Origin: Comamonadaceae bacterium | GTDB lineage: Bacteria > Pseudomonadota > Gammaproteobacteria > Burkholderiales > Burkholderiaceae_C | Direction: 5' to 3' | DNA length: 38,080 nucleotides | Assembly: GCA_947448885.1 (NCBI GenBank) | Contig: CANFPJ010000011.1 | Span: 1-38,080, forward strand | Shown: piece after piece, positions 13,568 to 35,378 of the stretch | How the letters are laid out: every line of letters starts with the position of its first letter | How positions within the stretch are numbered: the stretch's first letter is position 1 | The notes under the pieces: model-generated | Told to the model about the DNA's origin: nothing | Seen by the model: only the letters and a program-made list of their open reading frames with translations | The model's database searches: none | Made by a program: the position numbers and the translations under genes

Positions 13568-14560
13568 TCAGATTTTGAACGCGTCAAAAGTTTCCGGTGC
13601 AAATAACTCTTCTGGCGTGAGCAATCGACTGGATAAACCCTGCTGATGGTGATAGCGCAAGAACGTTTCCAATACATGGCGATTGCTTTGGAAGCCATAT
13701 GCCCACCAATCAGGGCCCAATTCTTTTTCAACTTGCTCCACATGGGCCGGTAACCAAGGCAACATGGTCTTTAAAGCAGCGACCTCACGCAAAGACTGAT
13801 AGGTGACCTTTTGAGACAGAACAAACGCTTTGAACAGCGATTGAGCCATCCATCGATTTTTTTCGTAGACGTCACGGCGAATCACCACCGTGTGCATGAT
13901 GGGTAAGATTTTTGTTTTTCTGTAGTAATCCACCTCTACTTCTGGGTAGTTTTCAAACAGCCTTTTGACTTTATGGGGTTGGCTGTAAAAAGTAGAGGGT
14001 GCACGAGCCGTGTGCATGGCATCAATGTCGCCGTTGGCGATCATTTCTGTCAGGGTCTGGGTGGGGCCAATCGGTGAAATTTTGACCGCAGGGGGCAAGT
14101 GCAACTTGATTTTTTCATCGCGTCCAGCTGTTTCAGCCCCACCGGTCAAATATTGAACACTGGTGTGGGGCACTTGGTAGTGCTCTTCCAAAATGCCACG
14201 AATCCAAACCGGTGCGGTCATTTGGTATTCGGGCGTACCAATTTTTTTACCCACCAAATCTGAAGGGTTCCGAATGCCACTGTCCACGTTCACGAATATA
14301 GAGTTATGCCGAAACATGCGTGATGGAAAAACCGGAATGGCAATGAAGTCCGGTTCGGCCTTCATCAAAGAGACGCAGTATGAGGACAGCGACATTTCAG
14401 CGCATTCAAACTCCTTATTGCGCAACATGCGAAAGAAAGTTTCTTCGACAGGCAATGACAAGTAATTGATGTCCAAGCCATCGGCCACCACAGTGCCATT
14501 GGCCAAAGCCGAAGTTCTGTCGTAGTCCCAGCATGCCAAGGTGATGCGCAATTTACCCAT
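13568..14560 (-). CDS. 4,5-dihydroxyphthalate decarboxylase (Pht5)-like protein
   Basis: 330 residues from ATG 14560, with GGAG 9 bases upstream. The opening LRITLACWDYDRTSAL, then VEETFFRML, CAEMSLSSY, the P-V-F-P-S-R-x-F-R-H segment and GKKIGTPEYQMTAPVWIRG match the 4,5-dihydroxyphthalate decarboxylase family. That family has the type 2 periplasmic-binding-protein fold (NMT1/SsuA-like) but acts in the cytoplasm; no signal peptide is present here either, supporting an enzyme. Family members remove a carboxylate from dihydroxyphthalate to give protocatechuate. Many relatives in catabolic clusters have unknown substrates. It is divergent from an FAD dehydrogenase across a 372-base gap. Confidence 0.82.
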   Translation of the reverse strand: MGKLRITLACWDYDRTSALANGTVVADGLDINYLSLPVEETFFRMLRNKEFECAEMSLSSYCVSLMKAEPDFIAIPVFPSRMFRHNSIFVNVDSGIRNPSDLVGKKIGTPEYQMTAPVWIRGILEEHYQVPHTSVQYLTGGAETAGRDEKIKLHLPPAVKISPIGPTQTLTEMIANGDIDAMHTARAPSTFYSQPHKVKRLFENYPEVEVDYYRKTKILPIMHTVVIRRDVYEKNRWMAQSLFKAFVLSQKVTYQSLREVAALKTMLPWLPAHVEQVEKELGPDWWAYGFQSNRHVLETFLRYHHQQGLSSRLLTPEELFAPETFDAFKI

Positions 14561-14692
14561 GTGTATTTCTCCATCCTTTGCGTTTGAATTGATGCCCGCA
14601 CCTGCGCAGGGCATTGGTGTCAACTCTGTTTTGAATATCGCTCAGTCGGCAATGATAGTGTGACATCCCGGCTGCTTTTATGAAGTGAAGCG

Positions 14693-14713
14693 CTTGACAC
14701 GCACAGGCCGTGA
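14693..14713 (+). repeat. Imperfect direct repeat, copy A
   Basis: This stretch reads CTTGAC-AC-GCACAGGCCGTGA. It matches copy B at 14888-14907 (CTTGACGCACAAGCCCGTGA) except for a 2-base insertion and a few changes in the middle. The two copies lie in the same orientation about 195 bases apart in a divergent promoter region, so they may be binding sites of one regulator. Confidence 0.4.
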
Positions 14714-14887
14714 ATTTCTTCTCTTGTGAACTCAACTTTTTCAAACGTCAGAGAAAACATGTCTTTTTGATATGCCTCAAAACATCACCTGAATCCACCG
14801 AAACCCACTTTCTGCGGTTCAGAATTCAAGAAACCGGGACGATACCGATTGACGTGAGAGGTCAGTTCTGAGAGAAATGAAATGGGT

Positions 14888-14907
14888 CTTGACGCACAAG
14901 CCCGTGA
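14888..14907 (+). repeat. Imperfect direct repeat, copy B
   Basis: Second copy of the motif described at 14693-14713. It ends 25 bases before the ATG of the FAD dehydrogenase, so a protein bound here would sit over or just after a promoter for that gene. Confidence 0.4.
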
Positions 14908-14932
14908 TTGAACTTCGCTTGAGAAAGAATTC

Positions 14933-16384
14933 ATGGAAAAACAAAAATTCGACCTGGTCATCATGGGGGGTGGTTTGGCAGGCCTGAGCGCTGGTGTCAG
15001 GGCCTGCGAACTGGGACTGTCGGTGGCCTTGGTCGAAAAAGGTGAAACCGATCAATACCCTTGCAATTCACGCTTTTCTGGGGGCGTATTGCACTTGGCA
15101 TTTCAAAACATCAAAGACCCGGCAAATCAATTGGCAAAAGCCATTTCAGAGGCAACAGACCACCATGCCGATCCCGAATTGGTCATGGCCCTCTCGATTG
15201 AATCGGAAAGATGTGTCAAATGGTTGCAGCAACAAGGCGCCCGCTTTATTCGGGCGGGACAAGTGATTTGGCAGCAATGGATCATGGCGCCTCCTCGGCC
15301 CATTTCACCTGGAATGGATTGGAAAGGCCGTGGGCCCGATGTCACGCTGAGGACATTGATGGAGACCTTTCGAAAAAAAGGGGGCCAGGTCTTTCTTGGC
15401 TGTGAAGTCACTGATTTTTTGAGGGATGGTGAAAGATGCATGGGCTTTCAAGCCACGCACCAAGGTCAAGAAAAACATTTCGAAGGCACGGCGACGTTGC
15501 TGGCAGATGGGGGTTTTCAAGCCAATTTGGCGTTGCTCAAAGCGCACATCGCACCTCAGCCCCATCAGGTGCTTCAGCGAGGGGCAGGCAATGCCATGGG
15601 CGATGGCATGCGTTTGGCGCAAAGCATGGGTGCTGCCACTTCCAGCTTGGATGCTTTTTACGGGCACGTGCTGTGCCAGCAAGCATTTTCCAATCCCAAA
15701 CTCTGGCCTTATCCACAATTGGACGAGCTGGCCACCTCTGGCGTGGTGGTGAATCCGAAAGCACAACGGGTCATCGACGAAGGCAGGGGTGGTGTCTATA
15801 TCGCCAATCAGTTGGCTCACCGTGAGAATCCCCTGGATTGCCACGTGATATTTGATCAGGCGATATGGGATGGCCCTGGCAAGACATCCCGTATTCCTGC
15901 CAACCCCCTGTTGCTCAGTGCGGGTGCCACTGTTTTGAAAGGCGATACCTTGGACGAGTTGGCCCAAAAAATGGGCTTACCCGCGCCAGCATTGACTCAA
16001 ACCATCGGACATTACAACCAAGCGGTTCAAAAACAGCAAACATCAGAGCTGAATCCGCCACGGAGCCACCACAAGCTCACACCCATGCCCCTGGTGAAAG
16101 CGCCTTTTTATGCTTTGCCCATCTGCGCAGGCATCACTTACACCACAGGCGGCTTGCTGATTGATTCGCATGCACGCGTCTTGCGCGAAAACAAAGTCCC
16201 CATTCAGGGCTTGTATGCCGCGGGATCGGTGGTCGGTGGGATAGAAGGCGGCCCCAACGCCAGCTATGTCGGTGGGCTGATGAAGGCATTGATCCTGGGG
16301 ATATTGGCGGCAGAAGATGTTGCCAAAACAAAGATCGAACCCACTTCAAAAACTTCCATGTCGTTCCATCATCACGAAGTTTGA
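14933..16384 (+). CDS. FAD-dependent dehydrogenase of the fumarate reductase/tricarballylate dehydrogenase family
   Basis: 483 residues. The N-terminal Rossmann motif is DLVIMGGGLAGLSAG (about 6-20), followed by the acidic end of strand 2 (LVEKGE). The C-terminal part has the FAD-binding closing motif GLYAAGSVVGGIEGGPNASYVGG. The FAD_binding_2 family oxidises or reduces C-C bonds next to a carbonyl or carboxylate (fumarate reductase, TcuA, 3-ketosteroid dehydrogenases). The ITYTTGG segment near 397 lies where fumarate reductases have their HTxGG substrate loop. No signal peptide, so it is cytoplasmic. A GAGAAAG ribosome site supports ATG 14933. It is divergent from the Pht5-like gene and converges on the - run. 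Similar in family to the flavoprotein at 19634-21097, but not a close copy. Confidence 0.88.
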   Translation: MEKQKFDLVIMGGGLAGLSAGVRACELGLSVALVEKGETDQYPCNSRFSGGVLHLAFQNIKDPANQLAKAISEATDHHADPELVMALSIESERCVKWLQQQGARFIRAGQVIWQQWIMAPPRPISPGMDWKGRGPDVTLRTLMETFRKKGGQVFLGCEVTDFLRDGERCMGFQATHQGQEKHFEGTATLLADGGFQANLALLKAHIAPQPHQVLQRGAGNAMGDGMRLAQSMGAATSSLDAFYGHVLCQQAFSNPKLWPYPQLDELATSGVVVNPKAQRVIDEGRGGVYIANQLAHRENPLDCHVIFDQAIWDGPGKTSRIPANPLLLSAGATVLKGDTLDELAQKMGLPAPALTQTIGHYNQAVQKQQTSELNPPRSHHKLTPMPLVKAPFYALPICAGITYTTGGLLIDSHARVLRENKVPIQGLYAAGSVVGGIEGGPNASYVGGLMKALILGILAAEDVAKTKIEPTSKTSMSFHHHEV

Positions 16385-16477: not shown

Positions 16478-16717
16478 TCAACGCGGAACCAAGGTGTCAA
16501 AAATAATCTCCACCATCTCGACATAGCTCAATAACAAGCCCCATGCGAGGGCGCCCATGATGGCGCCCAAGATCGCGCAAGGCCAAAATTGAAGGGCCCA
16601 TGCGCCACCTGCACCCAGCGCCAACAAACCAATGCCAACCAAGGCCGCCACACTTTTGCCATGGCGCCGCACCAAGCCCAAGACCGGGTAATGGGGCATG
16701 CCTTCTGAATCTGTCAT
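16478..16717 (-). CDS. Small two-helix membrane protein
   Basis: 79 residues from ATG 16717, with AAAGGA about 6 bases upstream. Two hydrophobic segments (about 22-43 and 46-64) follow a basic LVRRHGK stretch, giving an inside-start hairpin, and the protein ends in EMVEIIFDTLVPR. It is too short for TctB (about 150 residues, four helices). I believe similar short proteins with a terminal D-T-L-x-P-R occur near catabolic genes, but I cannot name the family. It is the last gene of the - run and follows a TTT receptor gene by 133 bases. The reading frame continues upstream without a ribosome site, so the short form is preferred. Function unknown. Confidence 0.7.
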   Translation of the reverse strand: MTDSEGMPHYPVLGLVRRHGKSVAALVGIGLLALGAGGAWALQFWPCAILGAIMGALAWGLLLSYVEMVEIIFDTLVPR

Positions 16718-16850
16718 AAAAATCCTTTGGAGGAATGATGAAGGTGTCGAATGATCATTTTCTTTTGAGCTGACACAGACATGAAATGCTGCTGGTTTGA
16801 ACGGAGCCCCATGAAAGATCATCACCCATGCGCCAAAGCAACCCCTCAAA

Positions 16851-17822
16851 TCAATCGACCTTGGCACCAGAACTGGTGACCAACTTTTCCCACATGGGTG
16901 CTTCTTTCAAGTTCATTTGCTGAAAATCAGCGGGCGACACATTGGGCGCCGGGTCCATGCCCTGCGTGGCCAACTTGTCGCGAATGTCGGTTCGCTTCAA
17001 GACCTTTGTGGCCGCGTCAAATAATTTGCGCACATCCTCAGACTTAACGCCAGTTGGCGCATACAAGCCAAACGAAAAACTGATGTTGTAATCGCTGAGG
17101 CCTGCCTCTTTCATTCCCACAATGCCAGGAATGGCGCCTGACCTTTCTTGCGTGGTGATGGACAAAGCTCGAATGCGATTGGCCCGGACTTGGGGCAGAA
17201 CCACTGGTGAGGTGCCAAAAATAACCTGGGTATCACCCGCCATCAAAGACTGCACCGCTGGGGCACCGCCCTTGAATGGAATGTGCAAGATATCCACGTC
17301 ATAAATACTGTTGAACAGCAAGCCCGCCAAATGCGGCGCTGACCCATTGCCACTGGAAGCAAAATTGAGTTTCCCCGGGTTCTTTTTGGCGTAAGCGATC
17401 AAGTCCTTGATGCTGTTGACAGGCAAGTTGTTGTTCACCGCAATGATCATGGGGCCATTGGCCAACAAAGTCACGGGCTGAAAATCTTTTTCAATGTCAT
17501 ACGGCAGCTTTTTGTACAGCGCTTTATTGATATAGGGGTTGCTGCCCACCAGCAAGGTGTAGCCATCTGCTGGTGCCTTCAACACCATTTCACTGGCCAA
17601 GTTTCCAGCTGCCCCGGGGCGGTTGTCAATGATGGCGGTTTGTCCCAATTCTGCAGCGATGGCTTCGCCGACCGTTCGGGTCACAAAATCGCCCGACCCA
17701 CCGGGCGGATACCCCACGACAAATCGCAAAGGCTTATGGGGGAAAGGCTGCGCACCCACAGCCCCTGCCATCAAAGCAGTCGTCAAGCAGATGCTGAATA
17801 ACCGGCAATGAAACCACGACAT
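16851..17822 (-). CDS. TTT-family (Bug) periplasmic solute receptor
   Basis: 323 residues from ATG 17822 (AAGGGG about 8 bases upstream); an ATG at 17837 would add five residues. The signal peptide ends near AGAVGAQ. Then come PLRFVVGYPPGGSGDFVTR, NRPGAAGNLASE, APADGYTLLVGSNPY, LPYDIEKDFQPV, LHIPFKGGAPAVQSL and a GLYAPTG segment, which is the complete Bug pattern. It captures an unidentified organic anion in the periplasm. Its gene follows the CoA-transferase by 78 bases, a pairing often seen in Burkholderiales where receptor and CoA-transferase serve the same carboxylate. No membrane subunits are encoded nearby. Confidence 0.94.
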   Translation of the reverse strand: MSWFHCRLFSICLTTALMAGAVGAQPFPHKPLRFVVGYPPGGSGDFVTRTVGEAIAAELGQTAIIDNRPGAAGNLASEMVLKAPADGYTLLVGSNPYINKALYKKLPYDIEKDFQPVTLLANGPMIIAVNNNLPVNSIKDLIAYAKKNPGKLNFASSGNGSAPHLAGLLFNSIYDVDILHIPFKGGAPAVQSLMAGDTQVIFGTSPVVLPQVRANRIRALSITTQERSGAIPGIVGMKEAGLSDYNISFSFGLYAPTGVKSEDVRKLFDAATKVLKRTDIRDKLATQGMDPAPNVSPADFQQMNLKEAPMWEKLVTSSGAKVD

Positions 17823-17900: not shown

Positions 17901-19094
17901 TTAAATCACTTTTCTTTCTCTCAACGCCGCCAATTCATCCGCGCTGAAACCCAATTTCAAATAAACATCGTCGTTGTGCTGGCCCAATTGGGTTTGACTT
18001 GACACCACGGCAGCGGGTGTTCGCGTGAGTTTGATGGGTTGCGCCACCACCCGAATCGGGCCTTTTTGGTCATGGTGAACGACCACTGCAGCGTCCAAAT
18101 GGGCCACTTGAGGGTCCGCAAACACCTGCTGCATGTCATAGATGGGCCCGCAAGGCACACCTGCATCGTTCAAGCATGTGACCCAATGTTGCGTCGTGTT
18201 CGAGGCGAACGACAAGTTGAGTTGCGCGTTGATGTATTCGCGATCTGTCAAACGGCCTGGGTTGCTTTGGTAACGCGGTTCGTCACGCAAGTCCAATCGT
18301 TTCAGCACCGTGCACAAACTGCGAAATTGGGTGGTGCCAGACGCACCAATGTTAAAAAATCCATCAGCGGATTTGAACGTGCCCATGGGTGTCGCAAAGG
18401 GGTGATCATTGCCAGCTTGACCAGGCACGGATCCATCGATCAAATACCTGGCCGCTTGGAAATCGCACATGGCTATCATCGATTGAAGCAAATTGGTCTG
18501 CACCCATTGACCACGCCCAGACTGCTCTCGCTCTAACAATGCCAACAACACGCCCATGGCGGCGTAATTGCCGGCGCTTGAATCAGCCACCGCAATGCCA
18601 GCACGAACAGGCCCTTGACCAGGCATGCCCGTCACGGACATCATGCCGCCCATGCCTTGTGCAATTTGGTCAAACCCCGGCCTGTCACGGTAAGGGCCAT
18701 CTTCACCAAACCCTGAAATACTGGCCAAGATGATGCGCGGATTGATGGTCGCCAGAGTTTCGTAATCCAAACCCAATCGAAACTTCACATCCGGCCTGAA
18801 GTTTTCAACCACCACATCGGCAGAGGCCACCAATCGATGAAAAATATCTTTGCCCTCTTGGGCTTTTAAATTCAATGTGATGCCACGCTTGTTGCGGTGC
18901 AAATTCAGCATGTCGTAGGTTTCCCGACCGCCAAGGGCGCCTTCATTGGGATCCAGCCCGGGTGGTGATTCAATTCGAATCACATCTGCACCAAAATCCG
19001 CCAACACCCGAACGCAGGTTGGGCCAGAACGGATCCGGGTCAAATCCAAAACCTGAAAACGTGCCAGCGCAGCACTGGCTTTGACCGTGGTCAT
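17901..19094 (-). CDS. Family III (CaiB/BaiF) CoA-transferase
   Basis: 397 residues, the usual length. N-terminal VLDLTRIRSGPTCVRVLADFGADVIRIE, then HRNKRGITLNLK and VVVENFRPDV form the first half. The catalytic Asp is at about 171 in VADSSAGNYAAMGVLLALLERE, and the C-terminal half ends with a typical LGFSADELAALRERKVI. Family III enzymes move CoA from one acyl-CoA to a free carboxylic acid without ATP. Here it would activate the acid captured by one of the adjacent TTT receptors, or recycle CoA from a product. No clear Shine-Dalgarno is visible at 19094. A lipocalin-like gene follows 54 bases upstream in the run. Confidence 0.94.
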   Translation of the reverse strand: MTTVKASAALARFQVLDLTRIRSGPTCVRVLADFGADVIRIESPPGLDPNEGALGGRETYDMLNLHRNKRGITLNLKAQEGKDIFHRLVASADVVVENFRPDVKFRLGLDYETLATINPRIILASISGFGEDGPYRDRPGFDQIAQGMGGMMSVTGMPGQGPVRAGIAVADSSAGNYAAMGVLLALLEREQSGRGQWVQTNLLQSMIAMCDFQAARYLIDGSVPGQAGNDHPFATPMGTFKSADGFFNIGASGTTQFRSLCTVLKRLDLRDEPRYQSNPGRLTDREYINAQLNLSFASNTTQHWVTCLNDAGVPCGPIYDMQQVFADPQVAHLDAAVVVHHDQKGPIRVVAQPIKLTRTPAAVVSSQTQLGQHNDDVYLKLGFSADELAALRERKVI

Positions 19095-19148: not shown

Positions 19149-19532
19149 TCAAGGCGCCCACACCTTGGTCCATAACAATTCCCGTTGCTGCATCAAATCG
19201 CCATACATTCGAGCGGGTGGTCTCAGCATCATTTGCTGGCCCACCATTTGAACTTGACGCACTTCATGGCCCCCGATTCGGTGAGCATCTGATGCAATGT
19301 CCACCAAACAATCCAGCACCTTGCCATCAAATTGGTAAACGCCACCATACGACATGTAATCGCGTTTGTTAACCACTGTGGGATCGCCGTTGCACAGCGA
19401 TGCCAGCATTCGATCGTTGGAAAAAGCAATTTGCCCGATGGGATTTTTTCCGTAGGGCGGCGGTAATTGATTGCCGTTGGTATCCCATGACCGCGCTTCA
19501 TCGAGTCGCCAAATACCTTGCAGATGATCCAT
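19149..19532 (-). CDS. Lipocalin-like domain protein
   Basis: 127 residues from ATG 19532, with GGAG 10 bases upstream; a further upstream start is possible in frame but lacks a ribosome site. The protein starts MDHLQGIWRLDEARSWDTNG and continues with PPYGKNPIGQIAFSNDRMLASL, a YMSYGGVYQFDGKVLDC strand pair and RPPARMYGD. This is the pattern of the small lipocalin-like family (one-domain beta barrel, G-x-W at the start). Members are frequent in catabolic clusters and may bind small hydrophobic compounds, but no activity is established. It lies between the CoA-transferase and a flavoprotein gene in the same run. Confidence 0.72.
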   Translation of the reverse strand: MDHLQGIWRLDEARSWDTNGNQLPPPYGKNPIGQIAFSNDRMLASLCNGDPTVVNKRDYMSYGGVYQFDGKVLDCLVDIASDAHRIGGHEVRQVQMVGQQMMLRPPARMYGDLMQQRELLWTKVWAP

Positions 19533-19633
19533 TTGCCCATGTCTCCTGTGGGTGTTGATTGATGAATTCAATATACCAGAATGGTGCCCATTCTTGATCC
19601 CTGAATGCCCTTGCATCACCGGGTTGGGCCACA

Positions 19634-21097
19634 TCATCTCTGGTGTTCTTTGGCCGCCATCTGGGCCGCCCGGCGGCCTGAAACAAATGCCCAGGCCAAA
19701 TGATGGCCATGGCCTTCGAGCAATAGCCCACCTTGACCTGCAGACCCTGCCGCATACAAGCCGGGTATGGGGGCTTGGTCCGGGCCCAACACTTGGTGCG
19801 ATGGATTGACGCGCAACCCACCATCTGTGAAAACCACATAGGCTTTCACCGGGCCCAAAGCGTAAAAAGGGCCATCTTCCGCAGGATATCGGCCACGCAT
19901 GTGCGCTTGAAGCCCCTCTGGATTCAAACCTGCCTTGCGTGCCAATTCACGCCAATCGCGCGCACCATGAAACAGGTCTTGGCGGTTCTTTTCATAATCA
20001 GCCATATAGGCATATGCAATGCCGGGGGCTGTCGAAATGAAGTAGGGCCATGCGGAGAAGCGCTGGTAAACCGTTGAATCAAAGATCAACCAAGCTTGCG
20101 CACCATCATGCTCGGCCACCGCATGGCCAATGGTTTTACCGGTCATCTGAACCAGCTCGCCCTTTTGATTCACCAAATGCGCCCCCTCCTTCAACAAAGT
20201 CGGAGAAGGCCCCAACGCTGTGGTCATGAACTTCATCATGAATGGTCGAATCCAGCTGGACGGCAAATGTTCAATCGCCCACGCCATGCTCCTCGCCGAC
20301 CAGCGCCAAGGCGGTAAGTTCTGGACCCAATGGGGCTTGGCTGGGGGTATGAAGCGCAGGATGGGGCCGCGCACAATGTCACCATTGACAACCTCGGCCC
20401 CCAAGGCATCAGCCATGCGATGGCCATCGCCCGTGGCAAATGGATTGACCGAATCCAGATGAATGGTTTGGGGATCGGCCCAACGCTGTTTCAGATCAGG
20501 CGCACCGCTGTAGTCACCGGTGGTGAGAATCACGGCCTTTTTTGCATGCACAGAAAAAGTCTGTCCCTGTTTCTGACCAAGCACCCCCACCACACGGCCG
20601 TTTGTGTCCGTCACCATTTTTTCGCAGGATGTGATCACGCATATCTTGACGCCCAATTTTCGACAGTGCTTGGTCAAGTGGTAAATCAAACTGCGTGAAT
20701 TCGGAATGGTGTTGTGCATGCGCGATACACGGTTGGGTGGGTCAGGCGCAGGGCCCATGAAAACAACGCCCAATTGACTTAACCAAGCCACGGCGTCGGC
20801 ACACTCATCCACCAAAATTCGACGCAACAGCAAGTTATCTCTGGGCGCCAAATCGCCTGCATGCAAAGCCAAGTCTTCAAAATGATGGTCGGCATGATCT
20901 TCAATGCCGGCACGCTTTTGCCATGCAGTGCCGTTGGCCGAAATGGCGCCAAGGGACCAAGCGGTAGAACCGCCAAGGTCTTGGTTCTTTTCCAACAGCA
21001 CAACGCGCAAGCCCAGACCTGCCGCTTCGGCTGCAGCGGCCAACCCTGCTCCACCCCCCCCCACGACGACGAGATCGCAATCGGTGTCCCACTGCAT
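19634..21097 (-). CDS. FAD-dependent dehydrogenase, 3-ketosteroid dehydrogenase/fumarate reductase-like
   Basis: 487 residues from ATG 21097. The Rossmann motif DLVVVGGGGAGLAAAAEA is followed by LLEKNQDLGGSTAWSLGAISA, the typical G-G-S-T-A-W-S loop of ketosteroid-dehydrogenase-like flavoproteins. The C-terminal FAD motif is GLYAAGSAGQGGLLLEGHGHHLAWAFVSGR. The segment GPVKAYVVFTDGGLRVN corresponds to the substrate-side T-x-GG loop. The family inserts a double bond alpha-beta to a ketone or reduces one. A cyclic ketone or acid is an attractive substrate given the monooxygenase and CoA genes nearby, but this is inference. It lies 41 bases downstream of the TTT receptor in the same run. Confidence 0.88.
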   Translation of the reverse strand: MQWDTDCDLVVVGGGGAGLAAAAEAAGLGLRVVLLEKNQDLGGSTAWSLGAISANGTAWQKRAGIEDHADHHFEDLALHAGDLAPRDNLLLRRILVDECADAVAWLSQLGVVFMGPAPDPPNRVSRMHNTIPNSRSLIYHLTKHCRKLGVKICVITSCEKMVTDTNGRVVGVLGQKQGQTFSVHAKKAVILTTGDYSGAPDLKQRWADPQTIHLDSVNPFATGDGHRMADALGAEVVNGDIVRGPILRFIPPAKPHWVQNLPPWRWSARSMAWAIEHLPSSWIRPFMMKFMTTALGPSPTLLKEGAHLVNQKGELVQMTGKTIGHAVAEHDGAQAWLIFDSTVYQRFSAWPYFISTAPGIAYAYMADYEKNRQDLFHGARDWRELARKAGLNPEGLQAHMRGRYPAEDGPFYALGPVKAYVVFTDGGLRVNPSHQVLGPDQAPIPGLYAAGSAGQGGLLLEGHGHHLAWAFVSGRRAAQMAAKEHQR

Positions 21098-21138
21098 GTT
21101 GAATTCCCCAAGATTGGCAGTGAACAAACCCACCCAGG

Positions 21139-22912: not shown

Positions 22913-22937
22913 GTGGGTCTTCAAAAAAATAATGTGT

Positions 22938-28365: not shown

Positions 28366-29615
28366 CGGATTCCTCCCTCGGGCTCCATGCCCATCAACTC
28401 AGACCAGTAAGACCAAAAGCCGCGGATGGGCGTTTCGGTAACCCTGTGCTCCAGGTTTTGGATGGGGCCCAAGCCGCCCATCTCCACCAAACTGTGGCTG
28501 GCTGTTTCACGGCGTGTGGCTTTCTGCACAATTTCAATCGCCTCTCCGTCCTCCATGCTGACCAAGCCAGCGGGCCCAACCAGATTGGCGCTGATCAAAC
28601 GGTGGCGCGTCATTTCCTCTGTGTCATCTTCATAGCCAAACAAGGTCTGGAAAATTTCATGTGCGTTCACGCCTTTGGGCCTGATTTGACGGCTGCTCAA
28701 ACTGTTGTTGATCTGAATGATGATCGCATTCGGGAAAAACGTGGGTGTGGCCAGGTTCAAACCATCTGCAAATTCGGGCCGATAGGCCAATATTTTTTGA
28801 TCGGATAAACGCATGCGGTCCAACTCAACGCCGCTGATACCCGCATATGCCTGTTCCGCTTGGGATTGTGTGTCCGAATTGCTGAACGCATAGTTCATGT
28901 TGTGGCGATGCCGCTCATCCATGCGCACCCCGCCCTTTTGGGTGGCGCGGTCCACACCATATGTGACAAAAAACTCATGCAGCAAGCTGGCGTGATAGGT
29001 GTCACGCAAGTTTTCAGCATAGAGCTTCCAATTGCCCTCGATCAACTGACGCGTGTAGCCCAAAATCTTGATGGGTTTGTGCATGAATCGCTTGATCATG
29101 CCCGTGCCAAACTCTCCCAAATAAGTCTCAATGGGCTCTGCTGCATCAGAAAAGGTGCCGAACAAGACCCCATGGTAATTGGCCAATCGCAAAGCTTTGG
29201 GATGATGGGCCTGCATGTCAAAGTCCGCAGGCATACCGCCTTGCCCTTGCAAGCCTCGCCGAAAGGGCACGCCTATCAACTCGCCCTTTTTGGAATAGCA
29301 CCAGCGGTGATAGATACAGACATGATCCGTTTTGCAGTGACCCGACACCTCGCGAACAATTTGCGCACCCCGGTGGCTGCAACGGTTGACAAACGCGTGC
29401 AACTGCCCATCATCACTGCGTGACACCACCACCGGCGTGTCACCCACCCAGGTTGTGCGGAAATCACCGGGATTGGGCACCTCGGCTTCGAATGCCAAGT
29501 AACTCCAGCAGTTGCCACGAAACACCCGCTCCATTTCCAGTGTGTACAACTCAGGGTCGTGGTAAACCGAAAAAGGCACTCGGGAGTAATCGTTGCGCGG
29601 CCAGTCGACGGTCAT
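28362..29615 (-). CDS. Aromatic-ring-hydroxylating dioxygenase alpha subunit (Rieske oxygenase)
   Basis: 417 residues from ATG 29615 (GGAG 6 bases upstream; an ATG at 29630 that overlaps the previous stop is less likely). The Rieske [2Fe-2S] ligands are Cys79-x-His81 and Cys100-x-x-His103 in NRCSHRG and CIYHRW. The mononuclear iron site is ENLRDTYHASLLH (bridging Asp205, His208, His213) with Asp356 in SMEDGE. All are intact, so it should be active. Sequence style recalls the salicylate 5-hydroxylase, anthranilate and terephthalate dioxygenase group, so a carboxylated ring is likely. It needs an electron-transfer ferredoxin and/or reductase, which are not in the window. The beta subunit gene is directly downstream. 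Confidence 0.94.
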   Translation of the reverse strand: MTVDWPRNDYSRVPFSVYHDPELYTLEMERVFRGNCWSYLAFEAEVPNPGDFRTTWVGDTPVVVSRSDDGQLHAFVNRCSHRGAQIVREVSGHCKTDHVCIYHRWCYSKKGELIGVPFRRGLQGQGGMPADFDMQAHHPKALRLANYHGVLFGTFSDAAEPIETYLGEFGTGMIKRFMHKPIKILGYTRQLIEGNWKLYAENLRDTYHASLLHEFFVTYGVDRATQKGGVRMDERHRHNMNYAFSNSDTQSQAEQAYAGISGVELDRMRLSDQKILAYRPEFADGLNLATPTFFPNAIIIQINNSLSSRQIRPKGVNAHEIFQTLFGYEDDTEEMTRHRLISANLVGPAGLVSMEDGEAIEIVQKATRRETASHSLVEMGGLGPIQNLEHRVTETPIRGFWSYWSELMGMEPEGGIR

Positions 29616-29626
29616 GTGGCTCTCCA

Positions 29627-30499
29627 TCAAAAAGCGCAGCGTGGCTCTGGCAAACCTTTGACACCCGGCTCAAAGCACAACACATGCCCTGCCCAGGGCT
29701 GATTTTGCAATTGCGCTGGACTCAAATGCATGCGTGCCGTGGTGATGAACAAAGTGCCCAAATCATGGCCACCAAACATCACCGATGTAGGCTGCTGGAC
29801 CGGCAAATTCATGACATGGATGGGGAGCCCACTGGGAGCGATGTGATGCAACTCAGCGCGATTGAACATGGCACACCACACGCCACCTTCAGCATCCACC
29901 GTCAAGCCATCGGGACCACCCTCACCTGATTTGAATTGGGCAAAAATCCGTCGACGGGATATTTCTCCTCGCTCCAAATCATGGTCGTAGGCGTAAATGC
30001 AAGCCGCTGGGGTATCGGCGAAATACATGGTGCGGTTGTCAGGGCTCCAAGCGATGCCATTGGCAATCGTCACCCCACTGGCGTCCATCTGGCGGATGCG
30101 CTGCAAACCATCCATTCGGTAAAGCGATCCAATGGCGCGCTCGGTGCGGCGGTCCATGGTGCCACTCCAAAAGCGCCCCAAGCGATCGCATTTGCCGTCA
30201 TTGAAACGCGTTTCGCCCAAAGCCAGCCCCGGCACATCCAACCATTGAACCGTTCCATCGAGGGGCTGAAAAATCGCGGGACCGTGGCGAAACATCAGCA
30301 GCAAGCTGCCGTCGTTTCGCAAAGCCATAGAGCCTGGGTACTTGGGCAACTTCCATTGATGGAGCAAGTGGCCTTGACCATTGGCACAAAACAAATGGGG
30401 GTCGTCCACATCGAACCACCACAACGATTGGCTGCTGGGGCACCACAATGGCCCTTCGCCCAAGCCGTTGCCGCAATCGATCCAACTTCGCAGGTTCAT
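29627..30499 (-). CDS. SMP-30/gluconolactonase/LRE-family lactonase
   Basis: 290 residues from MNLRSWIDCGNGLGEGPLW, the usual beta-propeller start with the metal-binding Glu of GEGPLW. RFNDGKCDRLGRFWSGTM carries the Asn/Asp of the second metal motif. Then ANGIAWSPDNRTMYFADT and GGPDGLTVDAEGGVWCAMF supply the remaining Asn and Asp ligands. Such enzymes hydrolyse sugar or other lactones with Ca2+, Zn2+ or Mn2+. A longer open frame upstream overlaps the dehydrogenase and is rejected. It lies 16 bases after the 3-HIBDH-like gene, 11 before the Rieske gene. A lactone arising from a Baeyer-Villiger step is a conceivable substrate. Confidence 0.9.
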   Translation of the reverse strand: MNLRSWIDCGNGLGEGPLWCPSSQSLWWFDVDDPHLFCANGQGHLLHQWKLPKYPGSMALRNDGSLLLMFRHGPAIFQPLDGTVQWLDVPGLALGETRFNDGKCDRLGRFWSGTMDRRTERAIGSLYRMDGLQRIRQMDASGVTIANGIAWSPDNRTMYFADTPAACIYAYDHDLERGEISRRRIFAQFKSGEGGPDGLTVDAEGGVWCAMFNRAELHHIAPSGLPIHVMNLPVQQPTSVMFGGHDLGTLFITTARMHLSPAQLQNQPWAGHVLCFEPGVKGLPEPRCAF

Positions 30500-30515: not shown

Positions 30516-31412
30516 TCAAGTTTTGGCTTTGACTTCCACACCCATGGATTGCTCGATGACACGGATGACATTGGTGAAGTCTTTGTCACCGCCAAAATCG
30601 TCGTTGGTGCGCTTCCAAATGTCGCGCACCGCTGTCGCCACCGGCATGGACACACCCAAAGCTTGGCTTTCTTCCAGGCACAAACGCACGTCTTTGTACA
30701 TCAGGGCCGTGGTGAAACCATAATCAAATTTGCGCGGCAAGATGGCGCGGGGAAACTTGTCGCGGCTGGCCGTGCTCATGCCACTGCCGGCGTTGATCAC
30801 ATCAATCATGATGCTGGGGTCCAAGCCGGCTTTCACCCCCATGCCCACGGCTTCTGAGGTGATGGCCATGGCCGCTGCTGACAATAAATTATTGGCCAGC
30901 TTCATGGTTTGAGCCATGCCTGGTTTGTCGCCAATGAAAAACATCTTGCCAATGTTTTTGAGCACCGGGGTCAAACGTTCATAGGTCGCATGTTGACCCG
31001 AAACCATCACGGCCAAGGTGCCTGCGATGGCGCCACCACGACCACCCGAGACAGGCGAATCGACAAACTCGATGCCTTTGGCAGCCAATGCCGCATGCAC
31101 CCATTGGGCCATGCCAGCGCCGGTGGTGGAGAGGTCCACCACGGTCTTGACTTTAGAGCCGTGGATCAAGCCTTTATCGCCCGTGGTGACATCTTTCACG
31201 ATGTCTGGCGTGGGCAGTGAAATCAACACGGTGTCTACCGCATCCGCCACCGCTTGCACAGACGCCACCACCTGTGCACCCTTTTGTGCCAAGGCCTGCG
31301 CCACCGTTGGATTGACGTCAAATACCGTGAGGGTGTAGCCATCTTTCAACAAGCGTTCGGCCATCGGCGTTCCCATGGCGCCCAACCCAATGAAACCCAC
31401 ATGTTTGCTCAT
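30516..31412 (-). CDS. 3-hydroxyisobutyrate/2-hydroxy-3-oxopropionate dehydrogenase family
   Basis: 298 residues. The first of two in-frame ATGs (31415) is only 4 bases from AAGGAG, so the second (31412, MSKHVGF) is preferred. The cofactor motif VGFIGLGAMGTPMA is at residue 5. DSPVSGGRGGAIAGTLAVMVSG is the substrate loop, and GMAQTMKLANNLL carries the catalytic Lys. Beta-hydroxyacid dehydrogenases of this type convert 3-hydroxy acids to semialdehydes with NAD(P). It starts the - run of lactonase, Rieske oxygenase and SDR, and is divergent from the CoA ligase operon across 244 bases. Confidence 0.92.
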   Translation of the reverse strand: MSKHVGFIGLGAMGTPMAERLLKDGYTLTVFDVNPTVAQALAQKGAQVVASVQAVADAVDTVLISLPTPDIVKDVTTGDKGLIHGSKVKTVVDLSTTGAGMAQWVHAALAAKGIEFVDSPVSGGRGGAIAGTLAVMVSGQHATYERLTPVLKNIGKMFFIGDKPGMAQTMKLANNLLSAAAMAITSEAVGMGVKAGLDPSIMIDVINAGSGMSTASRDKFPRAILPRKFDYGFTTALMYKDVRLCLEESQALGVSMPVATAVRDIWKRTNDDFGGDKDFTNVIRVIEQSMGVEVKAKT

Positions 31413-31618
31413 CATTCATCTCCTTCAATTGAATCTGGTGTTGGATCAAAAAATCTTGCAAGACCCAGTGGTCGCAGATATTAGCGGCATGTGGGTGGAT
31501 GCCGTGGGCAGCCGTACAAAAAGCACGCCGATACCCATCAAGCTGGGAACTGAAAGCCATCACAGCGCGGGTTATCCCTAGGAAAGCCCATGCCCTCGTC
31601 CGCTTTGCACCTTCAAGA

Positions 31619-31656: not shown

Positions 31657-33300
31657 ATGTCTCACCGTCCTGTTGTGTCACCCAAATCACTCTCGCCCAC
31701 TGCACCGAGCAGTCGCACCATTCCAGACTTGATCGCCGAGATGGCGCTTCGATATCCAGACCGCGAAGCATTGGTCGGTGGTCATCAACGACTGAGCTAT
31801 GCGCAATTGGCCACAGCGGTCGATGCCATGGCGGCGAGTTTGCTCAGACACGGCATCGCCAAGGGCGACAAGGTGGCCATCCTCATGGGCAACCGGGTGG
31901 AATGGATCGTCGCCGACTTTGCCATTTGCTCGATGGGCGCCATCATGGTGGGCGTCAACACTTGGGTCACAGCCCGAGAGCTGGCTTATGTGCTCAGCCA
32001 CAGCGAAGCGCGCTTGCTCATCACCACCGGTCAATTCCTCAAACAAGATTACCGACAGATGTTGGCCGACATCAGAAGTGCTGGAGACCCTTTGCCCGCA
32101 TTGAGGGGCCTGCTGCTGGTGGACCAAACAGCCGGAACCAACGAATGGGCTTGGAGCGATTGGCTTCAGGTGCCCAACAGCAGCGAGATCGTCGCGTTGG
32201 CTGAGGCCAAGCGGCATGTTGCCCCCAGCGATGACGCTTATATTTTGTACACATCGGGGTCCACGGCCAATCCCAAAGGCGTGGTGCTGCAACATTACGC
32301 ATTGATTGAAAACATGTGGCAAATTGGTCAGCGCCAACATGTCACCGAGCAAGACAAACTGTGGCTGGCCGTGTCCTTGTTTTGGGGCTTGGGCTGCGAA
32401 AACGCGCTGTTCAATTTATTCACCCACGGTGGCTGCATCGTTTTGCAAGAACACTTTGATCCGATCCAGGCCTTTCACTTGATTGAGTCTGAGCGCTGCA
32501 CCTTGTTTTACGGCACGCCCAACATGGCCGAGGCCTTGCTCAACCACCCCCAGTTTCATGCCGACCGCTTTCAATCTTTGCGAGGGGGCGCCACCATTGG
32601 AACACCCTTGCAAATTCAACGCTTGGTCGACGTGGGCTTGCGCGACATTTGCAATATTTACGGCCTGACCGAAACCTATGGCAATTGCGCCGTGACCGAT
32701 GCCGATGATCCCTTGGAATTGCGCTTGAACAGCGTAGGGCAACCCCTGCAAGGCGTGCAAGCGCGCATTGTGGATCCCGCCACCGAGTCCGAATGCCCCG
32801 TGGGTGAAGTCGGTGAAATTCGGGTCAAGGGCTATGTGATGCGCGAATACCTGAAAGACCCCGAGCGCACCCGAGAAGCTTTTGATGCCCACGGCTTCTT
32901 CAAAACGGGCGACTTGGGCTTGGTCAACCCAACCGGGCACATTTTCTTTCGCGGACGCATCAAGGAAATGATCAAGTCAGGGGGCATGAACGTGTCGCCC
33001 GTCGAAGTGGAAGAAGCCTTGATGCGACGCCCCGAGGTCCTGGCGGCTTACTGTGTGCCTTTGAAGACCGATGACTTTGATGAGGTGTTTGGGGCCGTTT
33101 TGGTTCCCAGAGGAGACATGCACATCAACTTGGATGTCATACGCACCCACTGCCAAAGCGAGCTGTCCCGCTACAAACGACCCCAGTCTTTTTTGGTGGT
33201 CCATGAGAAAGACCTGCCCTTGACCAACACAGGCAAAGTCAAGAAAAACGAAATGCAAGCTTTGTTTATCAGCGACCAGTTGTTGAAGTCCATCCATTGA
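31657..33300 (+). CDS. AMP-forming acyl-/aryl-CoA ligase
   Basis: 547 residues of the ANL superfamily. The ATP-binding P-loop is YTSGSTANPKGV (about 195-207), followed by IYGLTETYGNC, the TGDLG motif with the adenylation-domain Asp, and the hinge GRIKEMIKSGGMNVSP. The catalytic Lys of the C-terminal domain is at NTGKVKKNEM. All key residues are intact. It activates a carboxylic acid to the CoA thioester via the acyl-AMP, in the cytoplasm. The substrate pocket cannot be assigned. First gene of a four-gene + operon; the MBL-fold gene starts 10 bases after its stop. The next in-frame ATG (31741) is inside the domain, so 31657 is kept. Confidence 0.94.
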   Translation: MSHRPVVSPKSLSPTAPSSRTIPDLIAEMALRYPDREALVGGHQRLSYAQLATAVDAMAASLLRHGIAKGDKVAILMGNRVEWIVADFAICSMGAIMVGVNTWVTARELAYVLSHSEARLLITTGQFLKQDYRQMLADIRSAGDPLPALRGLLLVDQTAGTNEWAWSDWLQVPNSSEIVALAEAKRHVAPSDDAYILYTSGSTANPKGVVLQHYALIENMWQIGQRQHVTEQDKLWLAVSLFWGLGCENALFNLFTHGGCIVLQEHFDPIQAFHLIESERCTLFYGTPNMAEALLNHPQFHADRFQSLRGGATIGTPLQIQRLVDVGLRDICNIYGLTETYGNCAVTDADDPLELRLNSVGQPLQGVQARIVDPATESECPVGEVGEIRVKGYVMREYLKDPERTREAFDAHGFFKTGDLGLVNPTGHIFFRGRIKEMIKSGGMNVSPVEVEEALMRRPEVLAAYCVPLKTDDFDEVFGAVLVPRGDMHINLDVIRTHCQSELSRYKRPQSFLVVHEKDLPLTNTGKVKKNEMQALFISDQLLKSIH

Positions 33301-33310
33301 AGGAGATGCC

Positions 33311-34114
33311 GTGAGCCACCTACCCGACTACGAAATTTATGCCATCAAATACGCCCACCACATGCGCCAGTCGCCCGATAATTTTTTGGGCGGTGACAGC
33401 CACGATGTTCCCATGCCACTCGACTATTTTGTCTGGGTGATTCGCAACAGCCAAAAGGTCTGGGTGGTCGACACCGGTTTTTCCAAAGAGATGGCCCAAC
33501 AACGCGGAAGAGACTTTCTGCGTTGCCCCTCAGAGGGCTTGAAAATGCTCAACATTGATCCGACCGCTGTAGAAGATGTAATCATCACCCACATGCACTA
33601 TGACCATGCGGGCAACAATCACCTGTTTCAACGTGCACGCTACCACCTGCAAGACAAAGAAATGATTTATGCCACCGGTCGCTGCATGTGCCACAAGGTG
33701 ATGCGCTTTCCCTTTGATGTGCAAGATGTCACTGCCATGGTTCAGCGGGTCTACGAAGACCGCACCTGCTTTCACGATGGGGACGAAGAAATTGCCCCGG
33801 GCCTGAGCCTGCACCATGTGGGGGGGCACACCATGGGCCTGCAAGTGGTTCGGGTGCACACCCAACGCGGCTGGGTGGTGTTGGCCTCCGACGCGAGCCA
33901 CTTCTACGCCAACATGGAGCAAGAACGCCCTTTTCCTTTGGTTTACAACGTGGGCGACATGATGCAAGGCTATCAGCGCGCCTACGCGCTGGCCAGCTCT
34001 GCCGAGCACGTGATTCCTGGCCACGACCCCTTGGTCCTGCACCGCTACCCCAGCCCCAACGATGCCCTGAAAGGCATCGTGGCCAGACTGGATGTGGCGC
34101 CCGTTCAACCCTGA
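33311..34114 (+). CDS. Metallo-beta-lactamase-fold hydrolase (AHL-lactonase-like)
   Basis: 267 residues from a GTG start with AAGGAG 5 bases upstream. The metal site HMHYDHAGN (His94, His96, Asp98, His99) is followed by GGHTMGLQ, ASDASHFY and PGHDPLVL, so both metal sites are complete. VDTGFSKEM near residue 54 is the loop before the site. The sequence is in the N-acyl-homoserine-lactonase/AttM-type branch, which opens lactone rings, but many members hydrolyse other lactones or thioesters. In an operon with a CoA ligase, an SCP2-like protein and an alpha/beta hydrolase, a ring-opening or thioester-cleaving role in catabolism is more likely than quorum quenching. Confidence 0.9.
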   Translation: MSHLPDYEIYAIKYAHHMRQSPDNFLGGDSHDVPMPLDYFVWVIRNSQKVWVVDTGFSKEMAQQRGRDFLRCPSEGLKMLNIDPTAVEDVIITHMHYDHAGNNHLFQRARYHLQDKEMIYATGRCMCHKVMRFPFDVQDVTAMVQRVYEDRTCFHDGDEEIAPGLSLHHVGGHTMGLQVVRVHTQRGWVVLASDASHFYANMEQERPFPLVYNVGDMMQGYQRAYALASSAEHVIPGHDPLVLHRYPSPNDALKGIVARLDVAPVQP

Positions 34115-34152
34115 TCCACTGCAACGATATTCATCTTTTAAGGAAGCTACAC

Positions 34153-34542
34153 ATGGCTGCATTTCCAGACGAGGCTTGGTTCAAAGACTACCAGGCCCGG
34201 GTCAACCAGGACAAAGAACTGTCTGTCATCGGGAATTGGTTTTCCACCCGCTTCTCCATCACGGTGGACCAAGCTCGCCGGGTGATCGTGGTCGACCAGG
34301 GGCAAATCACCCAAGTGATCATGGCCCCTAAATTCGACAGCCGGCCCGCATTTGGCTTTCAAGCGCCCTCGTCGATTTGGGCCAAATTTTTAACCCCCAA
34401 TCCACCCCCGCTGTACAACGACTTTTTTGCCATGCTCATGCGTGTGCCCGAGTTTGTGCTGGAAGGCGATGGCCTGGTGGCCATGCAAAATGCCCGCGCC
34501 CTGCAGCGCTTGATGAACCTGATGAGAAAGGAAGCCGCATGA
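34153..34542 (+). CDS. SCP2-like small protein
   Basis: 129 residues with an AAGGAAG ribosome site. The sequence FPDEAWFKDYQARVNQDKEL, then FSITVDQARRVIVVDQGQI, APSSIWAKFLTPNPPPLYNDFFAML and GDGLVAMQNARALQRLMNLM resembles small sterol-carrier-protein-2-type proteins, which have a hydrophobic cavity. No enzyme residues are obvious. It lies in the operon between the MBL-fold gene and the alpha/beta hydrolase, with its stop overlapping the hydrolase start (ATGA, 34539-34542). A binding or carrier role for the pathway substrate is a plausible inference. The SCP2 link is based on pattern only. Confidence 0.7.
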   Translation: MAAFPDEAWFKDYQARVNQDKELSVIGNWFSTRFSITVDQARRVIVVDQGQITQVIMAPKFDSRPAFGFQAPSSIWAKFLTPNPPPLYNDFFAMLMRVPEFVLEGDGLVAMQNARALQRLMNLMRKEAA

Positions 34543-35378
34543 GCCGCATCGAACCGATCACTGGCCGTTATGTCAATGTGAATGTGAATGGCGAGGCACA
34601 CCGTATTTTTTATGAAGAGGCAGGTCACGGCACCCCGCTGATTTGCCTGCACACCGCCGGTGCCGATTCGCGCCAATGGCGCCATTTGCTCAACGACCCC
34701 GAAGTCACCAACCGGTTTCGCGTGCTGGCCTTTGACCTGCCCTACCACGGACGATCCACACCGCCCGACCAATGGTGGCTGCGCAAGTACCAATTGACCG
34801 CCCAGGGTTATGCCGACGTGATCCGCGCCTTTTGGCAAGCGCTGGACTTGGTCAAACCCGTGGTCATGGGTTGCTCCATGGGCGGCGCCATCGTGCTCAA
34901 AGTTGCCGTGGATTACCAAAAAGAGCTGACAGGCATTGTGGGCTTGGAATCCGCCGCTTTTGCACCCGGTCGATACAACGAGTTTTTGCACCACCCGGCC
35001 ATCCACGGCGGCGAGCTGTGCGCCAGCTACACCATGGGGCTGTGTGCCCCCACGACACCCGAATCCAACAAGCGGGAAAACTGGTGGTACTACGCGCAAG
35101 GCGGCCCTGGCGTCTATGCCGGCGATGTGTACTTTTACAGCTTTGACTGGGATGGGCGTGCGTCCATCAAAACCATTGACACGAAACAATGCAAGGTGTC
35201 ATTGCTGACCGGCGAATACGACTACTCGGCCACACCCGCCATGTCAGAGGAAGTGGCGGCATCGATTGCGGGTTCGCGCTACACCTTGATGAAAGGCATG
35301 GGCCACTTTCCCATGGTCGAGGACTACCCTGGCCTCAAGCGCTACCTGATGCCAGAACTCCAACTCATGTTGACCTAA
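34539..35378 (+). CDS. Alpha/beta-hydrolase fold protein
   Basis: 279 residues from the ATG at 34539 that overlaps the preceding stop. LICLHTAGADSRQW is the oxyanion loop, GCSMGG holds the nucleophile Ser113, TGEYDYS the acid Asp228, and GMGHFPMVED the His256, giving a complete catalytic triad. The size and style recall meta-cleavage-product hydrolases and carboxyl esterases. It is the last gene of the four-gene operon, and its TAA stop interlocks with the stop of the convergent quinone oxidoreductase (35375-35378). Substrate unknown; a C-C hydrolase, enol-lactonase or ester hydrolase would all fit. Confidence 0.9.
   Translation: MSRIEPITGRYVNVNVNGEAHRIFYEEAGHGTPLICLHTAGADSRQWRHLLNDPEVTNRFRVLAFDLPYHGRSTPPDQWWLRKYQLTAQGYADVIRAFWQALDLVKPVVMGCSMGGAIVLKVAVDYQKELTGIVGLESAAFAPGRYNEFLHHPAIHGGELCASYTMGLCAPTTPESNKRENWWYYAQGGPGVYAGDVYFYSFDWDGRASIKTIDTKQCKVSLLTGEYDYSATPAMSEEVAASIAGSRYTLMKGMGHFPMVEDYPGLKRYLMPELQLMLT

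Follow-up and report, generated by a model that had tools for sequence, protein, structure and literature searches.

The stretch of DNA analysed here, the window, is the entire contig C11 (38,080 bases) of a Comamonadaceae genome of 3.35 Mb that is distributed over 215 contigs and 88% complete. It carries a large number of putative degradation genes, among them those for a Rieske oxygenase (RieA/RieB), a type II flavin monooxygenase (FMO) and several hydrolases. Genes were taken from a list of open reading frames (ORFs) and from Pfam and NCBIfam scans, the latter covering the 25 best-listed families per protein. A preliminary description had placed a composite catabolic island at positions 13568 to 35378, and all enzyme classes it named are encoded there. 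The interval also contains a 3-hydroxyisobutyrate-dehydrogenase-type enzyme (HIBDH), a second short-chain dehydrogenase/reductase (SDR), a cupin, a Lipocalin_5 protein and two small proteins without a Pfam family, which had not been listed, and beyond 35378 follow a Zn-type quinone oxidoreductase and LivK. The region is indeed a composite of degradation genes, but not one island: its right part is a conserved unit that extends past 35378 to the contig end (38080) and onto a second contig, C5, whereas its left part is accessory. The edges proposed before thus did not hold.

The right part, with FMO, SMP-30 hydrolase, HIBDH, coenzyme A (CoA) ligase, metallo-beta-lactamase-fold (MBL) hydrolase, alpha/beta hydrolase, LivK and the Rieske pair with its SDR as members, comprises the genes below. 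Percentages are identities to the counterparts in G457, a metagenome-assembled genome (MAG) labelled Polaromonas (locus L009), unless stated otherwise; G458 is a Comamonadaceae MAG (locus L010).

19149..19637, minus strand: Lipocalin_5 protein (Pfam), part of the conserved unit; follows FMO directly in G457 and G458, 77-79%
22938..24698, minus strand: type II FMO with SnoaL/NTF2-like N-terminal domain; matches JsFMO (PDB 8acs), E=2e-107; 73%
27069..27875, minus strand: SDR (Pfam), putative cis-diol dehydrogenase; 85%, adjoining the Rieske pair in G457 too
27895..28365, minus strand: Rieske oxygenase beta subunit, RieB (Pfam Ring_hydroxyl_B); 76%
28362..29630, minus strand: Rieske oxygenase alpha subunit, RieA, sites D227, N246, T295, R314 and R396; 90%
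29627..30490, minus strand: SMP-30/gluconolactonase family hydrolase (Pfam SGL); 70%
30516..31415, minus strand: HIBDH (Pfam NAD_binding_2/11); 88%
31657..33300, plus strand: acyl-CoA ligase (Pfam AMP-binding); 78%
33311..34114, plus strand: MBL hydrolase, lactonase-like (Pfam Lactamase_B), with HMHYDH (HxHxDH motif); 91%
34153..34542, plus strand: small conserved protein, SCP2-like by eye only, no Pfam family; 84%
34539..35378, plus strand: alpha/beta hydrolase, start MSRIEP (Pfam Abhydrolase_1); 91%
35375..36421, minus strand: Zn-type quinone/enoyl oxidoreductase (Pfam ADH_N/ADH_zinc_N); 77%
36452..37723, minus strand: LivK-type solute-binding protein (Pfam Peripla_BP_6); 83%
37723..38079, minus strand: C-terminal part of livF, continued on C5 (41-base contig overlap, unbroken frame); 93% to LivF

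The start of LivK was chosen at MSVFTTKRS, the ORF list giving 37828. The MBL hydrolase showed 62-64% identity to proteins some of which are annotated as 'N-acyl homoserine lactonase family'. For the acyl-CoA ligase, none of the 25 best NCBIfam families reached its cut-off, and the fold model of the small protein at 34153..34542 was unusable (pLDDT 44).

C11 ends with the same 41 bases with which C5 begins, and livF can be read without interruption across this join. The unit thus continues beyond the end of C11. On C5 it comprises genes for the N-terminal part of LivF, LivMG, LivH, an alcohol dehydrogenase (ADH), a DUF35 protein, a thiolase-like protein, an SDR and a carboxymuconolactone-decarboxylase-family protein (CMD); the thiolase-like protein of L009 has its 88% counterpart here, near the start of C5. 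After the CMD gene follow genes for hydantoinase B and A, a second quinone oxidoreductase and two SDRs. These hydantoinase genes (C5 7291-11209), placed between CMD and the second quinone oxidoreductase, had no match in the G457 stretches.

G457 and G458 came from one FMO pattern scan of genome contigs (15 stretches matching a pattern, three loci). Loci were compared by tblastn, where matches covering less than 30-35% of the query or overlapped by a better match were left out. Both genomes contain relatives of FMO, SMP-30, HIBDH, CoA ligase, MBL, the small protein, alpha/beta hydrolase, quinone oxidoreductase and LivK, and G457 also carries the Rieske pair and its SDR. Between Lipocalin_5 and the Rieske-adjacent SDR, L009 contains genes for an aldehyde dehydrogenase (ALDH), an ADH, a DUF35/OB protein, a thiolase-like protein, another SDR and a CMD, all six of which are matched in L010. 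In G457 the unit forms one insert, for which 25 genes were listed; 24 have counterparts in the window's genome, in a rearranged order. The 23 genes that were compared showed 46-91% identity with a median of 83%, the lowest value belonging to the second quinone oxidoreductase. The two remaining genes are livF, whose counterpart is divided between C11 and C5, and the ALDH, whose best match in the window's genome reaches 39% and is not a close counterpart. With 24 of 25 genes shared, chance co-location of the right part is excluded; it is a real conserved unit.

A genome rich in degradation genes might also gather unrelated small pathways side by side, without a single substrate. The 28 Rieske-domain matches in the 3.35 Mb would fit such a history, as would the arrangement, which is unlike that in G457 and G458, and a Pht5 homologue outside any conserved block seen. 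We consider this explanation unlikely, since nearly all genes of the G457 insert have counterparts here despite the rearrangement and since in G457 they form one insert with definite edges.

Parts of the unit were also seen elsewhere. The third locus of the FMO scan, in the Rhodospirillaceae MAG G459, has an FMO with 44% identity; no other gene of the unit exceeded 30% in the 11.9 kb retrieved. MBL (54-55%), HIBDH-like and CMD-like genes occur in two further stretches of G459. A set of MBL, SDR, MmgE/PrpD, HIBDH and CMD genes recurs in Variovorax SRS16 (L104, 18-23 kb) and Paraburkholderia (L110, 12-19 kb). Further small clusters, at loci L043 and L108, are FMO, HIBDH and CMD in G184 and FMO, SDR and CMD in Cupriavidus NH9.

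In G457, the unit genes occupy 25,626 bases (C16:1871-27496) between the mnmA and NUDIX ORFs, as we name them from their sequences; a gap of 589 bases in this insert holds a putative small cupin, read by eye. On contig C66 of the window's genome, the mnmA and NUDIX matches end 31 bases apart, so the site is empty there and the unit is located elsewhere. In G458, mnmA lies beside livH as in G457, and the same order was found on two contigs, up to part of the SDR. The two genes adjoin each other in G140 and are separated by about 0.8 kb in G184; the stretches examined of G439 and G018 showed no NUDIX match. Degradation genes appear to have settled repeatedly at the mnmA-NUDIX junction: besides the unit in G457 and G458, a KsdD/TcuA cluster lies at most 10 kb from mnmA in G140 (L123), and in G062 (L120) NUDIX has a KsdD cluster at a distance of about 6 kb. 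Recent horizontal transfer could not be argued from identity alone: MnmA, a single protein, is 79% identical between the window's genome and G457, near the cluster median.

The thiolase-like protein (C5:4798-5976) aligns with Ltp2 (PDB 6ok1), and the catalytic residues Tyr294 and Tyr344 of Ltp2 are both aligned in it. The adjacent gene (C5:4347-4808) encodes a DUF35/ChsH2 partner matching OB_ChsH2_C and zf-ChsH2. In a multiple alignment of 23 rows, from which matches of ≤300 residues were excluded and in which several rows are one gene under two loci, the C5 protein has a Gly in the column of the nucleophilic Cys of two HDCF-type thiolase rows. Relatives from Rhodococcus (54%) and Chelativorans (53%) retain both tyrosines, and the relative from Variovorax SRS16 (41%) has Phe at the second position. 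We regard the pair as a putative Ltp2-like retro-aldolase. With the steroid side-chain aldolases Ltp2/ChsH2 and Sal/Shy (PMC12329534), it shares the thiolase fold as judged by sequence, the adjacent DUF35 partner and both tyrosines; it differs in having YDNF instead of YDHF or YDCY, and no MaoC hydratase domain was recognised beside the C5 protein.

The FMO of the window matches JsFMO over residues 14-582, including the SnoaL/NTF2-like N-terminal domain. According to PMC10028610, JsFMO is a type II FMO with oxidising activity on both linear and cyclic ketones. His216 and Tyr458 of JsFMO are kept in the window FMO if the chain numbering runs 16 ahead of that in the paper, and the two proteins share the FxGxxxHxxxY part of the fingerprint. 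The complete fingerprint, FxGxxxHxxxYQ, reads FKGMVLHSADYQ. In the type IIb consensus FxGxxxHxxx(H/y/f)P (PMC7570161) the Tyr is allowed; the Pro after it is absent here.

RieA aligns over its length with TphA2 and NagG (phmmer E=7e-111 against TphA2, almost full length). R309 and R390 of TphA2 are kept as R314 and R396, and N224, S243 and I290 are replaced by Asp (D227), Asn (N246) and Thr, respectively. An Arg at TphA2 position 309 is conserved across the aryl-carboxylate clade, as stated in PMC9060491, the source also for TphA2A3, with which RieA/RieB shares the alpha and beta subunits. In our alignment (matches of ≤300 residues excluded; L009 and L083 being the same gene; two rows stopping before R396) this Arg was found in 37 of 37 rows, RieA included, and Arg at position 390 in 8 of 37, while the combination D-N-T-R-R occurred only in RieA and its G457 orthologue. 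Of the terephthalate 1,2-dioxygenase motif N224-S243-R390, RieA has only the last residue (D227, N246, R396), and in place of the NagG-type Trp/Met/Met/Met at sites 224/243/290/390 it has D/N/T/R; rows were judged NagG-like from the NagG alignment. The NCBIfam models for anthranilate 1,2-dioxygenase AndAc/AndAd gave 445 bits for the alpha subunit against a cut-off of 750 and 127 bits for the beta subunit against 230. By motif, RieA is a member of the TphA2/AndAc/NagG aryl-carboxylate clade with specificity residues of its own, and not a terephthalate dioxygenase. The terephthalate pathway proper was rejected on the motif and because no PdxA-type gene or reductase lies beside RieA: the related Variovorax Rieske pair is followed by these two genes, the RieA pair by an SDR instead.

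Close relatives of these proteins were rare in the scans, in which only three or four candidates were scored per genome for the RieA family and class scans and for the FMO and KsdD family scans. RieA matched in 26 of 61 genomes at E≤1e-60 (best other than its own genome 54%), in 4 of 399 genomes of the family at E≤1e-128 (others 49%) and in 3 of 369 genomes of the class at the same threshold (others 51%). FMO matched in 52 of 399 genomes at E≤1e-90 (best others 55, 48 and 43%) and KsdD in 7 of 399 at E≤1e-70, the window's genome being included in each count. None of the other genomes in these samples had a RieA above 54% or an FMO above 55%, G457 and G458 belonging to the separate scan; the best plasmid matches were 52% for RieA and 46% for FMO. 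Distant RieA relatives that keep R390 and differ at other sites were seen on contig C108 of G018 (L013/L139, 54%) and on plasmid p3 of Thioclava sp. GXIMD2076 (L073, 52%), the latter with FAH, RraA, RidA and ferredoxin genes.

The retro-aldolase/DUF35 pair, the ketone-oxidising FMO, three hydrolases and the dehydrogenases together suggest a logic in which a CoA-activated side chain is cut back to a ketone, oxygen is inserted and the ester so formed is hydrolysed. It is possible, if somewhat short of probable, that the unit imports and degrades an aromatic carboxylic acid that carries an acyl side chain and, in addition, another acidic or polar group. In the order of reactions that we propose for the putatively co-transcribed genes, the aromatic acid would be taken up via LivKHMGF and its side chain activated to the CoA ester by the ligase. 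The beta-hydroxyacyl-CoA would then undergo retro-aldol cleavage by the Ltp2-like/DUF35 pair to a short acyl-CoA and a ketone or aldehyde, and the ketone would be subject to Baeyer-Villiger oxidation by the type II FMO. The resulting ester or lactone might be hydrolysed by the alpha/beta, MBL and SMP-30 hydrolases and the fragments oxidised by ADH, HIBDH and SDRs. RieAB would hydroxylate the ring carboxylate, and the adjacent SDR would serve in rearomatisation. The route for 4-sulfoacetophenone in Comamonas testosteroni KF-1, compared by description (PMC3746432), shares the shortening of a side chain to a ketone, Baeyer-Villiger oxidation, ester hydrolysis and a Comamonadaceae host; the window FMO differs in matching the type II class.

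Several observations weigh against this proposal. The motif YDHF of Ltp2 is YDNF in the C5 protein, His296 thus being Asn. With the numbering offset of 16 residues, Asp217 of JsFMO is Asn in the window FMO (PMC10028610). The FMO fingerprint has Tyr where Type I Baeyer-Villiger monooxygenases have Trp (FxGxxxHxxxW), and its last residue is Gln, neither the K/R of the published FMO consensus nor the P of the type IIb consensus. An acyl-CoA dehydrogenase and an enoyl-CoA hydratase for forming the beta-hydroxyacyl-CoA were not recognised in the unit, nor were a ring-cleavage dioxygenase, a Rieske reductase or a ferredoxin, the genome as a whole not having been searched for any of them; outside the unit, an enoyl-CoA hydratase is encoded at 168-953 of the window and a VOC/dioxygenase-superfamily protein at C5:17020-18261. 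R314, the arginine conserved in the clade, speaks for a carboxylate that is free on the ring, a poor fit if the Rieske oxygenase acts on a CoA ester. G457 and G458 are close relatives (MnmA 94%) and amount to almost one independent observation, and no item of the evidence names the substrate.

The gap before the beta-hydroxyacyl-CoA would close more easily if the unit served an ibuprofen-type route, for which ipfA and ipfB reportedly encode the Rieske oxygenase and ipfF the CoA ligase. Here the ligase would form an arylalkanoyl-CoA, the Rieske oxygenase would dihydroxylate the ring at the carbon bearing the side chain, and the Ltp2-like/DUF35 pair would strip off the acyl-CoA to leave a catechol, with FMO and hydrolases serving another branch. 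Since ipso hydroxylation itself gives the beta-hydroxyacyl-CoA, no dehydrogenase or hydratase is needed, which explains their absence from the unit better than the side-chain-to-ketone proposal does. The parts list also resembles ipfABDEF of Rhizorhabdus wittichii MPO218, in which a thiolase-type deacylation yields propionyl-CoA and 4-isobutylcatechol according to PMC9195938. Compared by description, the shared parts are the CoA ligase, the Rieske alpha and beta subunits and a thiolase-type acyl-removing pair, whereas the present unit has a Rieske oxygenase of the TphA2/AndAc clade and additionally encodes FMO, three hydrolases, HIBDH and a Liv transporter. That clade acts on free aryl carboxylates, with R314 in every row of the alignment, and is a worse fit than under the side-chain-to-ketone proposal, and a catechol dioxygenase was not recognised in the unit. 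We regard the ibuprofen-type route as improbable. The auxin (iad) pathway, which was considered from the Rieske/SDR/Liv pattern, was set aside and not refuted.

The remaining genes of the window either interrupt the unit or lie to its left.

13568..14563, minus strand: Pht5-type 4,5-dihydroxyphthalate decarboxylase homologue; 61% to pCAR3, 64% to Sphingobium; PDB 9jp7
14933..16384, plus strand: TcuA-like flavin adenine dinucleotide (FAD) flavoprotein (FAD_binding_2); best NCBIfam family TcuA, 208 bits against a cut-off of 369; 47% to Azospirillum
16478..16867, minus strand: small protein, no Pfam family; 31% match between KsdD-like and TcuA-like genes in Neorhizobium
16851..17822, minus strand: TctC receptor 1 (Pfam)
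17901..19094, minus strand: family III CoA-transferase (Pfam); 57% to Azospirillum proteins
19634..21133, minus strand: KsdD-like FAD dehydrogenase/reductase (FAD_binding_2); 54% relative in G078, adjoining AMDase and TctC relatives
21139..22179, minus strand: TctC receptor 2 (Pfam TctC)
22160..22939, minus strand: arylmalonate decarboxylase (AMDase)/maleate-isomerase superfamily protein, one-Cys type (Pfam Amdase); 43% to G078, 48% to Ancylobacter pA
24732..25412, minus strand: small protein, EthD-like by eye, no Pfam family
25621..26433, plus strand: second SDR (Pfam)
26458..27048, plus strand: cupin-domain protein (Pfam Cupin_2)

In G457, FMO and Lipocalin_5 are 45 bases apart, and in G458 they are adjacent, whereas in the window AMDase, TctC2 and KsdD sit exactly between them. 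In G078, relatives of KsdD (54%), AMDase (43%) and TctC (32%) are consecutive, and a few genes further on lies a relative (66%) of the G457 ALDH. Because FMO and Lipocalin_5 adjoin in G457 and G458 and the three relatives are consecutive in G078, we read AMDase-TctC2-KsdD as a group probably placed inside the FMO gene run. The order KsdD-AMDase-TctC in G078, as opposed to AMDase-TctC-KsdD here, and the identity of only 32% for TctC count against it, and 'same cassette' is a reading. On an Ancylobacter plasmid, relatives of KsdD and AMDase are about 12 kb apart. Likewise, the Rieske trio, the cupin, the second SDR and the EthD-like protein separate SMP-30 from FMO in the window, whereas in G457 the distance between these two genes is 71 bases. 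The cupin had no tblastn match in the fetched loci, including the G457 and G458 stretches, apart from that of its own genome. The second SDR has no close relative in the G457 and G458 stretches, its best-scoring match outside its own genome being 31%. The EthD-like protein gave a 29% partial match one gene from another FMO in G439 and an unusable fold model (pLDDT 39.5).

KsdD, AMDase, CoA-transferase, TctC1, TcuA-like and Pht5 genes had no match in the unit-carrying stretches of G457 and G458. The gene runs of the region had been expected to stay together in relatives; this proved right for the right run and not for the left run as a whole, of which some parts were found again in other places: KsdD accompanied by AMDase and a TctC, or by TcuA. 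In the AMDase-type protein, Cys197 is aligned to the AMDase Cys, which we take to be the single catalytic Cys (second of the racemase pair), and the first Cys position of the two-Cys racemases is not Cys; the NCBIfam arylmalonate decarboxylase model gave 116 bits against a cut-off of 225. For the flavoproteins, the KstD models of 3-ketosteroid dehydrogenases reached at most 128 bits against 789 among the 25 best-listed families. The aromatising desaturases ChcC1 (at most 85 bits against 1000) and ChcC2 (78 against 900) were rejected, their cut-offs lying far above these scores. The Pht5-like protein matches the 4,5-dihydroxyphthalate decarboxylase PDB 9jp7 (phmmer E=9e-82) and is 61% identical to the annotated pCAR3 enzyme and 64% to Sphingobium proteins. 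On pCAR3 a Gfo/Idh dehydrogenase is adjacent and a Rieske oxygenase two genes further; in the window neither is next to it, the immediate neighbours being the TcuA-like gene and a 166-aa ORF without a Pfam family. Further to the left, the window encodes a large protein with the zinc-protease motif HELGHAMGLKH, seen by eye (8961-10781), another TctC receptor (3155-4129) and an enoyl-CoA hydratase/thioesterase pair (168-1541).

These genes bear on the suggestion that an alicyclic ketone ring is opened by KsdD-like dehydrogenation, Baeyer-Villiger oxidation and lactone hydrolysis, in a route converging with an aromatic-acid branch. The genes for FMO, AMDase, TctC2, KsdD, Lipocalin_5, CoA-transferase and TctC1 are indeed tightly packed on one strand (gaps of -20 to 78 bases with the starts chosen), and KsdD-like genes lie near TcuA-like genes in Azospirillum, Neorhizobium and G140. 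We give the suggestion a low probability, as KsdD, AMDase and TcuA are unmatched in the FMO-carrying G457 and G458 stretches and neither flavoprotein reached a cut-off among its 25 best-listed NCBIfam families, ChcC1 (4-oxocyclohexanecarboxylate 2-dehydrogenase) giving 85 and 80 bits against 1000. A monooxygenase of a Baeyer-Villiger-capable class, hydrolases and an aromatic-acid-type Rieske oxygenase are all present, and to that extent the part types expected for two converging routes were found; since monooxygenase, lactonase-type hydrolases and Rieske pair share one conserved unit with the retro-aldolase/DUF35 pair and an ATP-binding cassette transporter, two routes are not obvious.

The gene set had not been recognised as any described pathway, and topical searches of the open-licence literature likewise yielded no matching cluster. 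The plasmid neighbourhoods of RieA, MBL, KsdD, CoA-transferase, FMO, Pht5 and thiolase relatives contained recurring sets and no matching characterised pathway. Taking the side-chain-to-ketone proposal further, it is conceivable, though doubtful, that some genomes carry at mnmA-NUDIX an undescribed aerobic island in which steroid-type retro-aldol removal, a Baeyer-Villiger type II FMO and a member of the terephthalate-dioxygenase clade with new specificity act on one natural aryl (di)carboxylate, and that here the KsdD-AMDase group widens its range to another class of substrates. At mnmA-NUDIX, the occupied site and the empty one form a pair that is usable to study the assembly and movement of degradation genes. 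If true, the proposed island would show a type II FMO and an uncharacterised branch of the terephthalate-dioxygenase clade in their physiological setting, and the interest of the gene set would lie in a new pathway open to testing, not in a new kind of system.

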